Under the pieces are notes generated by a model, which worked only from the letters and a program-made list of their open reading frames with translations, was not told the DNA's origin and ran no database searches. From Thalassobaculaceae bacterium (GTDB taxonomy: Bacteria; Pseudomonadota; Alphaproteobacteria; Thalassobaculales; Thalassobaculaceae): DNA of 52,440 nucleotides. A program made the translations under genes and the position numbers. The DNA lies in contig JARGOG010000010.1 of NCBI GenBank assembly GCA_029212785.1, positions 1 through 52,440 on the forward strand. Direction: 5' to 3'. Of this stretch, positions 16,177-19,792 are shown one piece after another (the stretch's first letter is position 1; the number at the start of each line of letters is the position of its first letter).

Positions 16177-16205
16177 TGAAAACGCCTCTCGTTTGCTCGG
16201 GGCGG

Positions 16206-16233
16206 GTTATACCATGGCGTAATCGGTGCGCAA
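16206..16233 (-). promoter_or_regulatory. Possible promoter of aroQ-accB-accC
   Basis: On the minus strand TTGCGC (16233-16228) and TATAAC (16211-16206) are 16 bases apart and lie 30-57 bases before the aroQ start. The -10 match is good and the -35 match is weak. Confidence 0.35.
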
Positions 16234-16619
16234 CGGTGCCCCTGAAACCTCAAGCTTACTCCCCGACCCGCGGCAGCCGCGAAATCTGCCGCGGGCGATG
16301 GCGCCTCGCGACTCCACACCGCCGCTGCCGTGTGCGGGGGACTGGGCGGACGCGCAGGATCGACTCTTCAGAATGCACTGAATAGATGTTTATTCAACAT
16401 GATAATAAAATAATAAATGGAAATTTGGGCGTAAATTTTTGATTCTTAAAGTGTTCGGTAAATAATTAATTGTCTTGAACTGGTGAGTGTTCGCGAAATT
16501 AACCAATGATTAAAATATTGGCTGATATGTCGAAGGAACCAGGCAGCCGGTAGGCGTGCGTCGTCGCATCCGGCCCATGAATTATTGGCGCACTTTGGTG
16601 CGAGAAAGCAGGAGGAAAC
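16234..16619. other. Divergent intergenic region with a GC-rich hairpin and an AT-rich block
   Basis: The 443-base gap between aroQ and the Cache gene has no supported gene. A perfect 10-bp inverted repeat (CCCGCGGCAG, 16267-16276 with 16286-16295, 9-base loop) lies near the aroQ side; it lacks a T-run, so it is not an obvious terminator. From about 16376 to 16545 the sequence is strongly AT-rich against a GC-rich genome, with many A/T tracts, suggesting a promoter and regulatory region for the Cache gene. A 5-bp stem CGCAC/GTGCG lies just before the Shine-Dalgarno (AGGAGG). Confidence 0.5.
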
Positions 16620-17075
16620 ATGCTCAAGACAATCATTAGCGGTATCGCCGGCCTTTTCTTGGCGCTGGCAGTCGTTGTTGCGCCGGCTTACGCGGCCGAG
16701 CAGGGCTCAGTCGACGAGGCCAAGGCAATGGCCGAAAAGGCAGCGGCGTTGCTTAGCAGTGCCGGCAAGGACAAGGCCTTCGAGGCGTTCAACAACAGCG
16801 GTGATTTCAAGGACCGCGACCTTTACGTGTTCGTTGTCGACAACGCCGGTATCACCGTCGCCCATGGCGCCAACGCTGCCCTGATCGGCCGCAACCTGAT
16901 GGAAGTGCGCGACCCCGCCGGGAAGCAGTTCGTCAAGGAAATGGTCGGCGTTTCCGACAAGGGGTGGGTCGAATACGTCTGGCAGAACCCCGCGTCCAAG
17001 GCCGTCGAGCCGAAGAAGTCCTACGTGATCCGCGAAGGTGACGTCGTCGTCGGTGTTGGCGCTTACGTGAAGTAA
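16620..17075 (+). CDS. Secreted single-Cache (sCache_2-like) ligand-binding protein
   Basis: The 151-residue precursor has a signal peptide (hydrophobic residues 5-22, APAYAAE cleavage near 26). The mature part resembles a single Cache domain: a long helix (about 30-60, [14 protein letters not shown]), then [49 protein letters not shown] and a final strand [10 protein letters not shown]. This fold binds small carboxylates and similar ligands in chemoreceptors, but here it is a free periplasmic protein with no membrane or output domain. It sits 67 bases before a chemoreceptor gene, so a role as a binding partner of that receptor is likely, though inferred. The start has AGGAGGAAAC upstream. 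A terminator follows it directly. Confidence 0.82.
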
Positions 17076-17090
17076 GCCGACTCCATCATT

Positions 17091-17119
17091 CGGGGGTGGT
17101 GATCGCCACCCCCGGTTTT
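17091..17119 (+). terminator. Terminator between the Cache gene and the chemoreceptor gene
   Basis: A 9-bp perfect GC-rich stem (CGGGGGTGG 17091-17099 with 17106-17114, 6-base loop) is followed by GTTTTCCCTTT. It lies 15 bases after the Cache stop codon and 23 bases before the chemoreceptor start, so it can set the ratio of the two products by partial read-through. Confidence 0.75.
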
Positions 17120-17142
17120 CCCTTTCCTTTCGAGGGGCGATC

Positions 17143-18828
17143 ATGATCTCCGTTAAGAACCTCTCCATCCTCTCCAAATCGCTCGCCGCGCCCCTCCTCG
17201 CGACATTGATGATCGCAGTGGTCGCGGTCGTGTTCGTCGCCACCTATCTGCAAATCCGCGGCAATACCGACCAACAGGCCCGGATTTCGGAGCTGCGCGT
17301 CGACGTGCAGGACGCACTTCTCAATCTGGCCACCGCGCATACGGAGACCCTGCGGGCGACCAACATGAAATACGCCCAGGTCCCGGATGACCTGATCACC
17401 AAGGCCTCGGCGTCCGCGCGAACATATCTCGACCGGGTGCAGGAAATCCTCGACAGCCGGCTCGCCATGGGCGGTCTCGAGCACGAGGCGCTTGTCGCGA
17501 TGGTCGATCTGTTCAAGAGCTATCGCGCGCCGACCGAGGAGACCCTCGGCTCGATCACCATCGACGCCTTTATGGCGGCGATGTTCCTGAACGATGCCCA
17601 GGTGCGGTTGATCGAAATCGAAAAGGCGGGCAAGGCGCTTCTGACCCGCGTGATCGAGGCTGATGCGGCGATTGCCCGCGAGGTGAGCGATGCGTTGACC
17701 TTCGCGCTGATCGCGGTTCTCACCGCCTCCGTGCTTGCCGTGCTGCTTGCGGGCAGCGCGGGCCTGTTCTTCGGGCGGGCGATCGCCCGCCCGGCACAGG
17801 CGCTGACCGAGTCGATGCGGCGGTTGGCCGACGGCGACACGGCGGTCGAGATTGCCGGCACCAATCTCGGCGACGAGATCGGGCAAATGGCCGGCACGGT
17901 CCAGGTCTTCAAGGACAATATGGTCCGCAACGAGGAACTCTCCCGCCAGACCGCGCGCGAGCAGGAGGAGCGCGTGGCCCGTTCCGAACGTCTGGAACGG
18001 CTCACCACCGCGTTTGACGCCAATGTACGCTCGGCGCTGGACGTGCTGTCGAGCGCCGCCGGCGACATGAACCGGACCTCGGCCACACTCACCGAGGCGG
18101 CGGGTTCGACCAATTCGCAGGTCGCCACGATCTCCAACACCGCCCGTCTGGTTTCCGGGAGCGTCCAGACGGTCGCCTCGGCGGCGGAGGAGCTGAGCGC
18201 CTCGATCGGCGTGATCAGCGACCAGGTCCAGCGGCAGGCCGACATGGCGCAGAGCGCGTCCGAGGCTGCCGACGGCAGCCGTCAGCACGTGACCGAACTG
18301 GCCCAGCAGGCCGAGCGCATCGGCGAGGTCGTGACCCTGATCCAGGACATCGCCGAGCAGACCAACCTGCTGGCGCTGAACGCCACGATCGAGGCGGCGC
18401 GGGCCGGTGATGCCGGCAAGGGTTTCGCCGTGGTGGCGACGGAGGTGAAGAGCCTGGCGACCCAGACCGCCCAGGCGACCGAGAATATCGCCTCCCAGAT
18501 CCAGTCCGTTCAAACCCAAACCAAGGCGACAGTCGGGGCCATCGAATCGATCGTGAAATGGATCGCCGAGATGACGGAAGTATCCGCCGCCGTCGCCGCT
18601 GCGGTGGACGAGCAGAACGCCGCCGCTCAGGAGATCGGGCGCAGCGCCAGCCAGGCCGCCGACGGGACGGGCGAGGTCACCAGCGGGATCGAGGCGGTCA
18701 CCCAGGCGGCCGACAGCGCGGGCGCCGCGTCGGGAGAGGTCAAGGAGGCGGCCGGTAAGCTGTCGGAGAATGCGTCCACCCTGAGCAGCCTGGTCGACGG
18801 TTTCCTGAGCGACGTCCGCGCAGCCTGA
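17143..18828 (+). CDS. Methyl-accepting chemotaxis protein
   Basis: A 561-residue transmembrane chemoreceptor. Order: TM1 (about 18-38), a 150-residue periplasmic domain (39-186) that looks helical like a four-helix bundle, TM2 (about 187-211), HAMP domain (about 208-262, [13 protein letters not shown]), then a long coiled-coil signalling domain to the end. The conserved hairpin tip is present near 405 ([19 protein letters not shown] ... [13 protein letters not shown]), which binds CheA and CheW. The ligand for the periplasmic domain is unknown. The neighbouring secreted Cache protein may deliver it. Start ATG at 17143 is preceded by GAGGGG. No che genes are in the window, so this receptor feeds a pathway encoded elsewhere. 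Confidence 0.95.
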
Positions 18829-18859
18829 TCGGACACGCTGCAGATCTTCCAGACATTGG

Positions 18860-18896
18860 CGACCCCGCTGGCATCCCCGGCGGGGTCGTTGTCTTT
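18860..18896 (+). terminator. Terminator of the chemoreceptor gene
   Basis: GACCCCGC pairs with GCGGGGTC around a short loop (stem arms 18861-18868 and about 18880-18887), followed by GTTGTCTTT. It lies 32 bases after the chemoreceptor stop and separates it from the convergent LysR gene. Confidence 0.65.
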
Positions 18897-18907
18897 CCCG
18901 CCGGCGC

Positions 18908-19792
18908 TCAGAACGGGCCCGGTCGGCCTTCCTCGGCGAGCCAGCGGGTGAAGGCGGCCTCTTCCGGACAATCCAGGCGGCCCGACGGCAGCAGCATGTA
19001 CCACCGGTCCCCGTCGATCCGCGGCCCGTCCACGGCAGGGACCAGACGGTCGGCGGCGAACGATGCGGTATCGGTAATGGTCGAGGCGAGCACGATGCCC
19101 TTGCCGAGTTCGGCCGCCCGCACCGCCAGATCCCGGGCCGCGAAATCCACCCGGGCGTGGTCGTCGAGCCGCGCCGGTCCGTTGGCGGCGAACCACCGAT
19201 CCCAGTCGGGAGCGTTTCCCGCGACCAGCAGCGGCAGGGCCCGGCCGAACGCATTGTCCCCCAGGCTTTGCGCGACGCCAGGCGCGGCCGCCGGGAACAG
19301 CGCCTCGTCGAGGAACGGGTCGGCATGCAGGTCCGGGTGGCTCGATACGCCGTTCAAGAGGGCGATGTCGGCCCGCCCCTCCAGCACGCAGGACGGGTCC
19401 GACGCCTCGGCGATCTTGACCTTGAGACCATTGCCCGACCGGGAGAAACGGTCGAGGCGCGGCACCAGCCACTGGAAGGCGAAATCCGGGTCGGTCCCGA
19501 TCACAAGCTCCGGGCCCTCGCGGCGCGGGGCGACGGATTCAGTGGCGATCGAAATCGTCGTGAAGGCCGACCGCAGCGGGGCGACGTAGCGCTGGCCCTC
19601 TGCGGTCAGGATCAGGCCGTTGTGGATGCGCTCGAACATCGGGGTGCCGAGTTGGTCCTCCAGGGCTTTCACCTGCTGGCTGACGGCGCCGGGGGTGACG
19701 TGCAACTCCGCCGCCGCTCGCTTGAAGCTGAGATGACGGGCCGCCGCCTCGAAGGCACGCAAGGCGTTCAGGGGAGGAAGTCGATAGGTCAT
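18908..19792 (-). CDS. LysR family transcriptional regulator (GcvA-like)
   Basis: A 294-residue LysR-type regulator. Residues 1-65 form the winged helix-turn-helix: LPPLNALRAFEAAARHLSFKRAAAELHVTPGAVSQQVKALE, which is close to the GcvA/AmpR subgroup that begins with PLNALR. Residues 90-290 form the periplasmic-binding-protein-like effector domain. It diverges from the RidA-like gene with 137 bases between starts, the standard arrangement for a regulator and its target. The ligand is unknown. Confidence 0.92.
   Translation of the reverse strand: MTYRLPPLNALRAFEAAARHLSFKRAAAELHVTPGAVSQQVKALEDQLGTPMFERIHNGLILTAEGQRYVAPLRSAFTTISIATESVAPRREGPELVIGTDPDFAFQWLVPRLDRFSRSGNGLKVKIAEASDPSCVLEGRADIALLNGVSSHPDLHADPFLDEALFPAAAPGVAQSLGDNAFGRALPLLVAGNAPDWDRWFAANGPARLDDHARVDFAARDLAVRAAELGKGIVLASTITDTASFAADRLVPAVDGPRIDGDRWYMLLPSGRLDCPEEAAFTRWLAEEGRPGPF

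Follow-up and report, generated by a model that had tools for sequence, protein, structure and literature searches.

In the chemosensory pairs MBP–Tar, RbsB/MglB–Trg, DppA–Tap and LsrB–Tsr, as passages of PMC4926252 describe them, a soluble periplasmic ligand-binding protein is read out by a chemoreceptor with a four-helix-bundle (4HB) ligand domain; the binding proteins are solute-binding proteins (SBPs), and their genes stand with transporter genes. The same passages describe indirect sensing by PstS–CtpL of Pseudomonas aeruginosa, where receptor domain and loaded protein form a 1:1 complex; there, the CtpL ligand domain is not a 4HB and PstS is a transporter-type phosphate-binding protein (PMC4926252). 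Here we analyze a two-gene locus in a 52,440-nucleotide stretch of DNA from a Thalassobaculaceae bacterium (assembly GCA_029212785.1, contig JARGOG010000010.1; hereafter the window), in which the gene of a free single-Cache protein is followed by that of a methyl-accepting chemotaxis protein (MCP). Unlike the partners in the MBP–Tar group, the window protein is a 150-amino-acid (aa) Cache encoded beside the receptor, with no transporter gene alongside. We propose, with a probability of about 0.6, that the two genes form an indirect chemosensor in which the free Cache docks on the neighboring 4HB receptor, both ligand and docking being predicted; together they would probably act as a two-piece sensor for small carboxylic acids.

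The Cache half of the pair also has described relatives. 4EXO, PscD, Adeh_3718 and gut lactate/pyruvate sensors share its fold and its six pocket positions; in these sCache_2 receptors, according to passages of PMC12415202, the Cache is built in, whereas the window Cache is free and carries a signal peptide. Stand-alone single Caches with a signal peptide are represented by sCache_heme/Tll0287, which have CXXCH and heme and a proposed redox role in the passages of PMC12889525 that treat them, whereas the window Cache is cysteine-free. The nearest published idea that we found dates from 2004 and concerns Rhodopseudomonas, where a Cache gene standing alone adjoins the gene of a ligand-gated channel; as part of PMC549065 presents it, cooperation with a neighboring receptor gene was likewise proposed, with the channel as partner and in one genome. 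No description of a Cache–4HB receptor pair was found in the open-licence literature, covered as listings, abstracts and some passages. The functional analogue of the pair is most likely binding-protein chemotaxis (PMC4926252, in part), with a Cache that lies outside both the SBP families and the heme-type stand-alone Caches. Binding-protein chemotaxis as such (MBP–Tar, PstS–CtpL) is already known; on our best reading, what is new here is a binding protein that is a detached Cache domain.

The free Cache protein and the 4HB receptor

The first gene (16620..17075, + strand) encodes a 151-aa protein that we propose to be a secreted C2/C3-carboxylate-binding protein. Residues 20–150 match PF17200 (sCache_2) in Pfam with an E-value of 5e-19 and 69.1 bits against a curated cut-off of 25, and the genome holds one sCache_2 protein. 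The AlphaFold2 model has a mean predicted local distance difference test (pLDDT) score of 90.6, with block means of 56 for residues 1–20 and 95–99 for residues 31–150. Its structural neighbors are led by Adeh_3718 (4k08; Z 16.8, 3.6 Å over 124 residues), followed by a Vibrio parahaemolyticus domain (2qhk; Z 16.3, 5.6 Å over 127) and PscD (5g4y; Z 15.6, 5.2 Å over 124). Fold (Z 15.6–16.8) and PF17200 score thus both place the protein in sCache_2. The two AlphaFold2 models, of the receptor and of this protein, were built as single chains from alignments of relatives (28 and 58 rows), and both are confident.

A Sec signal peptide (residues 1–25; 16620..16694, + strand) with an AYA-A site was judged by eye from the sequence, and from it we infer secretion. 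A hydrophobic N-terminal stretch is present by a simple cut-off in 71 of 74 free Cache relatives; two fall narrowly below the cut-off and one (L095) lacks the stretch. In the window protein no hydrophobic stretch follows the signal peptide, and a two-sided membrane anchor like that of a built-in Cache domain is absent. The model has a short N-terminal helix (31–48) and stops at the last strand, leaving out the membrane connectors that a Cache within a receptor possesses. The free periplasmic single-Cache protein with signal peptide that the original prediction had read from the sequence is thus borne out by PF17200, the AYA-A site and the model. In Pfam the protein matches Cache families only, which sets it apart from classical SBPs; PMC9602780 lists 45 Pfam SBP families, and its text does not name PF17200, PF08269 or PF02743. 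Two other identities, lipoprotein and heme Cache (sCache_heme), were considered and rejected because the protein contains no cysteine and hence no CXXCH.

The pocket points to the class of ligand. Passages of PMC12415202 give the sCache_2 residues that hold short carboxylic acids as Y96, F98, H109, F148, W150 and K161 of 4EXO, with position 109 a histidine in pyruvate binders and a leucine in L-lactate binders. Sequence alignment to 4exo puts Y69, F71, H82, Y119, W121 and K132 of the window protein (16824..17015, + strand) at these six positions, in agreement with the pattern Y96, F98, H109 or L, F148 or Y, W150 or F, K161. All six positions are invariant in 12 of 12 close relatives. Across 58 free Caches, Y69 and Y119 occur in all 58, K132 in 56, W121 in 46, and H82 and F71 in 44 each, so that the pocket is retained whether or not a free Cache has a receptor beside it. 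The predicted ligands of the window protein are pyruvate or acetate-like acids; given H82 at the pocket, pyruvate or acetate would be favored over L-lactate.

The second gene (17143..18828, + strand) encodes a 561-aa MCP with a HAMP domain (PF00672, E 7e-10; residues 209–260, 17767..17922, + strand) and an MCP signaling domain (PF00015, E 7e-31; residues 360–522, 18220..18708, + strand). It is one of about 20 MCPs in its genome (21 PF00015 matches, two in one frame). No Pfam ligand-domain match, including 4HB_MCP_1 and TarH, was obtained for the window receptor; among 28 paired receptors, five match 4HB_MCP_1 and two match TarH (E ≤ 0.01). In the AlphaFold2 model of residues 1–270 (mean pLDDT 93.6), helices span 9–77, 82–109, 114–137 and 142–229, with a HAMP-like end. 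Residues 36–186 (17248..17700, + strand) are predicted from this model and from VIA-align to be a periplasmic four-helix-bundle ligand domain, our proposed docking domain. The top solved neighbor of the bundle is PcaY_PP (6s33; Z 17.9, 1.6 Å over 139), and Tar (2asr; Z 15.1, 2.0 Å over 136) is also close. Designed helical bundles in the same list reach Z 15.9; helical bundles give high Z easily, so we read these matches as 4HB and no more. With a four-helix periplasmic bundle, HAMP and an MCP signaling domain, the protein has the composition of a 4HB chemoreceptor, and the model and its neighbors uphold the earlier claim that its periplasmic domain is a helical bundle and not a Cache.

Helical-bundle sensors with a soluble partner stand among the same neighbors, namely the LytSN chain of XylFII–LytSN (5xsd; Z 17.2, 1.8 Å over 118) and TorS–TorT (Z 13.7). 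The likeness of XylFII–LytS and TorT–TorS to the window pair is that a helical-bundle sensor reads a soluble binding protein. Unlike the window pair, the sensors there are histidine kinases and their partners are bilobal binding proteins.

Conservation and shared divergence of the pair

Searched as a single sequence, the window Cache matched 10 of 36 genomes of the order at 1e-10, its own included, and the six top-scoring genomes besides its own (E ≤ 6e-43) each carry a receptor immediately downstream, homologous into the ligand domain. At the level of the class, 38 of 387 genomes matched at 1e-15, with a receptor downstream in six of the seven best other genomes (E ≤ 5e-31; G351 lacks one); one genome, G018, belongs to both samples. 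In the phylum sample 41 of 397 genomes matched, and among 30 loci there, eight have a receptor downstream (L193, the window's own L194, L195–L199 and L202, with L195 and L202 recognized in longer stretches), five are fused receptors and 17 have none within 1500 bases. L197 and L202, from genomes of another class, share this type of ligand domain.

At least 57 named relatives came from a pattern scan of 84,980 species with one genome per species, and the census and pair analyses below draw on scan relatives, among the matches listed, together with fetched regions. Across 67 distinct free-Cache loci, the receptor lies directly downstream in 32, directly upstream in three and farther off in one (L097, 463 bases away), while 31 have none in the flanks that were fetched. 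An adjacent receptor is thus found at 35 of 67 loci, or at 35 of 80 if 13 further loci without a receptor within 1500 bases are added (L008, L009, L011, L014, L027, L028, L030, L033, L037, L038, L039, L041 and L042). Six duplicates (L110, L112–L115, L123), a kinase-fused match in L057 and 24 fused frames were removed from the census; genomes G170 and G393, whose flanks are not included, also lie outside it. Two loci cut by contig ends (L045, L048) were assigned as downstream by hand and excluded from the pair analyses as incomplete, leaving 30 pairs. Adjacency rises with Cache profile score, from 2/9 (below 100) through 8/29 (100–150) and 11/15 (150–200) to 14/14 (at least 200), in bins biased toward pairs, since paired members made up the profile.

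Pairs outside the census occur in L195, L197, L198, L199 and L202 and in the cultured Azospirillum sp. B510. Six plasmid records have a Cache match; of the three examined, only Azospirillum sp. B510 has the pair, and its receptor ligand domain matches the same profile (54 bits), while the A. lipoferum 4B and A. ramasamyi plasmid records examined have none. A plasmid search with the L132 Cache gave no match. The pair is therefore not confined to this genome; such confinement would have spoken against the original prediction. Its range goes beyond Rhodospirillales, where the prediction had suggested looking for conserved adjacency, and extends to records named Hoeflea, Kiloniellaceae and Rubrivivax and to other classes of the phylum.

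Adjacency was also recovered from the receptor side. The window ligand domain, as a single sequence, matched 8 of 387 class genomes, and in five of the seven others the receptor adjoins a free Cache: directly after it in G018, G036, G113 and G310, and directly before it in G067 (L143). In G172 and G252 no Cache stands alongside. Among the 30 pairs, outer neighborhoods are conserved only within five close locus groups and two more gene families turn up repeatedly at scattered places in the flanks, giving about 22 different neighborhood contexts. That the two genes stay together in such varied surroundings speaks for selection on the pair.

The Cache diverges in step with the ligand domain of the receptor and not with its signaling domain. 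Cache and ligand-domain distances correlate with r = 0.78 in the 30 pairs and r = 0.50 in 22 non-redundant pairs, values reached by 0 of 1000 permutations in either case; the corresponding values for the signaling domain are 0.42 (0/1000) and 0.05 (341/1000). Partial correlations separate the two domains further, at 0.72 and 0.51 for the ligand domain against −0.09 and −0.11 for the signaling domain (30 and 22 pairs). Removing five truncated or short receptors left them at 0.72 and 0.54 versus −0.07 and −0.06 (25 and 17 pairs). Since both domains lie in one gene, the comparison is an internal control that allows in part for common descent; based on simple distances and permuted labels, it gives the strength of the co-divergence only roughly. 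As expected of a binding-protein-mediated chemosensor, a soluble periplasmic protein and an MCP are encoded or inherited together in the close subfamily, not in all free Caches.

Several loci depart from the simple arrangement. L044 (3986–5186; metagenome-assembled genome (MAG) IP29b_bin.98) has two tandem Cache genes before one receptor, perhaps feeding two ligands into one receptor. In L056, L143 and L144 the order is reversed, with the receptor first and the free Cache second. In L226 and L227, which extend L202 and L195, a free Cache stands between two chemoreceptors, and the upstream receptor of L227 carries its own weak Cache match. Pairs in L048 (Syntrophus MAG) and L061 (Nitrospirae MAG) reflect either inter-phylum transfer or mis-binned contigs. 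The pair of Azospirillum sp. B510 (L224, 1933–6569) lies after the gene of an AMP-binding, acyl-CoA-synthetase-like enzyme, which once more points to carboxylates.

The inter-gene hairpin

Between the two genes lies a hairpin (17090..17115, + strand) with an 11-bp stem, eight of its pairs G-C, followed by a U-rich tract to about 17127 (TTTTCCCTTTCC). From its end to the receptor ATG there are 27 bases, or 23 by the end point of the original prediction, which had placed a terminator at 17091–17119. In sequence the window hairpin resembles an intrinsic terminator. Terminator-like sites in the 8-kb region number seven against 3.8 expected by shuffling, the window hairpin having the longest stem of the seven; the scan alone is therefore weak, and gene ends were compared across relatives instead. 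The 81-nt fold itself gave z −1.7.

A strong stem (at least 8 bp and at least 6 G-C) lies within 85 bases past the Cache stop in 16 of 30 pairs, compared with 4 of 32 control gene ends (p 6e-4). The controls were other co-directional gene ends of the same loci, from simple composition gene calls and with related loci kept. In 19 of the 30 pairs the inter-gene sequence folds at z ≤ −2 against its shuffles, and in Tistlia (L045, outside the 30 pairs) the stem reaches 16 bp. The hairpin arms differ in sequence among relatives.

The hairpin may be a plain intrinsic terminator that splits two transcription units, with the receptor start inside the Cache gene, an explanation that we regard as doubtful and that is compatible with the proposed chemosensor. 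A U-rich tract follows the stem in the window and in three relatives (L050, L052, L133), as a terminator should have it; against this, only 2 of 17 stems of at least 8 bp with 5 G-C, the window among the two, have at least five T in the next eight bases, and the gap past the hairpin is too short for a normal promoter. A G-C stem with a U-tract is thus present in the window itself and is not a conserved element of the pairs. Because the recurring hairpins mostly lack the tract, the family is explained no less well by differential mRNA stability than by termination. By analogy, the recurring element would resemble the puf hairpin of Rhodobacter, which in passages of PMC10253847 stabilizes the upstream message and sets product ratios. 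In the puf operon (PMC10253847, in part), the inter-gene hairpin sets unequal product amounts from one mRNA; the genes are different, and the window hairpin would act likewise.

An excess of Cache mRNA over receptor mRNA, by termination or by stabilization at the 3′ end, is plausible on this analogy. The terminator of the original prediction is accordingly retained in part: the hairpin with its U-tract is present, and the tract is rare in relatives. The same holds for its argument from stoichiometry, which keeps a terminator-like element in the window and shares its ground, in the relatives, with a stabilizer that fits no less well.

Around the pair, a divergent aroQ gene (PF01220) lies upstream and a convergent gene for a LysR-family regulator downstream, so that the Cache and receptor genes stand as a co-directional unit. 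An AT-rich leader (16360..16619, + strand) precedes the Cache gene as a candidate promoter region. It contains a weak sigma-70-like match (16439–16466, 9 of 12), one of two in the 8-kb region against 1.3 expected by chance. Rfam gave two matches over 16200–19000, both far under the cut-offs and taken as chance.

Proposed docking at the receptor tip and competing explanations

In the mechanism that we propose, the product of the first gene would be secreted as a soluble single-Cache domain, untethered to the membrane and with the C2/C3-carboxylate pocket kept. The free Cache would capture pyruvate or an acetate-like ligand in the periplasm and, once loaded, dock on the membrane-distal tip of the four-helix bundle of the neighboring receptor, whose transmembrane helices, HAMP and signaling domains would relay the signal to CheA, in a response whose direction we can only infer. 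The inter-gene hairpin would keep Cache mRNA above receptor mRNA, which would suit a soluble binding protein.

Within the periplasmic domain, receptor conservation is concentrated at the distal tip. Of 62 tip positions, 14 are conserved at 70% or more in 18 core receptors, compared with 2 of 89 other periplasmic positions (p 8e-5); the tip was defined as 15 residues to each side of both distal turns, a zone fixed after a first view of the invariant positions. D141 (codon 17563..17565, + strand) is invariant across the 30 paired receptors, whereas 5 of 12 unpaired relatives have it (p 3e-5, uncorrected for a position picked from all). The unpaired set comprised 12 of 13 receptors, L192 being excluded.

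A tip of this kind fits a docking site for the Cache and equally a direct ligand pocket. The receptor may therefore sense directly through its own bundle, while the Cache buffers, scavenges or competes for the same ligand with no docking, an explanation that we consider unlikely. The close structural neighbors PcaY_PP, MCP2201 and Tar bind ligands directly. Tar binds aspartate in the distal half of its ligand domain. R71, Y127 and D141 likewise sit in the distal half of the window bundle, and R71 and Y127 are kept in many unpaired relatives. Direct sensing accounts poorly for a D141 that is invariant in the paired receptors and present in fewer than half of the unpaired ones, and for a Cache divergence that follows the ligand domain specifically; one Cache per receptor in tight adjacency would also be odd for a mere buffer.

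It is rather improbable that the two proteins share a ligand theme and regulation and act separately, the Cache serving metabolism or another sensor and adjacency meaning co-regulation. No adjacent receptor is present at 32 of the 67 free-Cache loci, and some free Caches lie beside PQQ (pyrroloquinoline quinone) alcohol dehydrogenase genes in Azospirillum or in tandem by mdh- or sucC-like genes. Separate action is hard to reconcile with closest relatives that keep the pair while the flanks change, with a gene order reversed in three loci, and with a co-divergence specific to the ligand domain, which co-regulation would not lead one to expect. Chance adjacency with no functional link, to which five same-genus genomes without a Cache match might point, is highly implausible given about 22 neighborhood contexts and an expectation of roughly 1% per genome (an estimate from about 20 MCPs in about 4,600 genes).

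Other observations count against the proposed docking sensor itself. Thirty-one census loci have no receptor in their flanks and one has it at a distance only; free Caches have other uses, as beside the Azospirillum PQQ alcohol dehydrogenase; and five same-genus genomes gave no Cache match in the order search, so that the system is patchy. Together these suggest several roles for free Caches taken as a whole, and our claim is made for the close subfamily. Results based on the Cache profile A1 and the receptor profile A4 are partly circular, both having been built from paired members. Profile A4 (paired ligand domains) found 30 places in 24 genomes. Eleven of its 12 strong places (E ≤ 5e-49) have a Cache neighbor, yet ten of the 12 are A4 rows; of the other two, G018 is a close relative and paired, and G068, the sole new place, is unpaired, so the count shows only that strong Cache-less members are few in the sample; the G068 genome holds two free Caches elsewhere (L129). 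Five of the 18 weaker places have a Cache neighbor (one diverged, E 5e-10) and 13 have none. Neither the permutation nor the Fisher p-values take shared ancestry into account, Y127 and R71 occur in 11 and 7 of the 12 unpaired relatives, and the conserved tip, as noted, suits a direct pocket as well as docking.

On balance, the partnership that the original prediction had inferred is strengthened by adjacency at 35 of 67 loci, differing flanks, co-divergence and a conserved carboxylate pocket; its argument from stoichiometry is supported only in part. To the fuller statement, that the cut-loose Cache is a secreted, co-evolving, ligand-presenting subunit for a 4HB receptor, outside the listed SBP families, tuned to pyruvate or acetate and held in excess by the hairpin, we give roughly even odds. 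More than 90% of Cache domains are fused to a signaling module according to part of PMC12889525, and passages of PMC4822843 argue that an extracellular Cache signals only through its C-terminal transmembrane helix. If the docking sensor is real, a free Cache signaling by docking would be a counter-example to signaling by that helix alone and would show a route from receptor module to soluble co-receptor, and the orphan 4HB receptor set would gain a testable ligand class, short-chain carboxylates. Since Azospirillum sp. B510, a cultured strain, has the pair, direct testing is feasible.

Free Caches also occur in other settings. In A. lipoferum 4B (L223, 3842–4306) and A. ramasamyi (L225, 3839–4306), one stands after genes for a PQQ methanol/ethanol dehydrogenase and pedF and before an ATP-binding cassette (ABC) transporter, a setting that fits acid from periplasmic alcohol oxidation. 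L024, L037, L065, L067 and L099 have tandem free Caches (four in L099) with no receptor seen nearby; these sit between mdh-like (malate dehydrogenase) and sucC- or sucD-like genes, recognized by eye. Examples from the phylum search (L211, L216–L222) are free frames of about 280–347 aa in several genomes, with two Cache matches each, of family f175 and others, and no receptor within 1500 bases.

In a further arrangement, a Cache of the same type lies behind the signaling domain in one frame: 24 frames among L070–L098 (for example L070, 1985–4387, and L098, 2870–4393), L200 and L212–L215. The L070–L098 matches were rejected as receptor-then-Cache gene pairs, both parts being in one open frame. 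These fused frames are mostly in betaproteobacterial records. Eight that were inspected, two of them with a PF17200 match, have no transmembrane helix between signaling domain and Cache, so the Cache there should be cytoplasmic; MCPs with a ligand domain at the C-terminus are as such already known, as a passage of PMC7390727 states. Finally, two genomes labeled as the same genus (G023, G024) are 1.5 Mb in one contig and 99% complete, compared with 4.7–5.6 Mb for the others.

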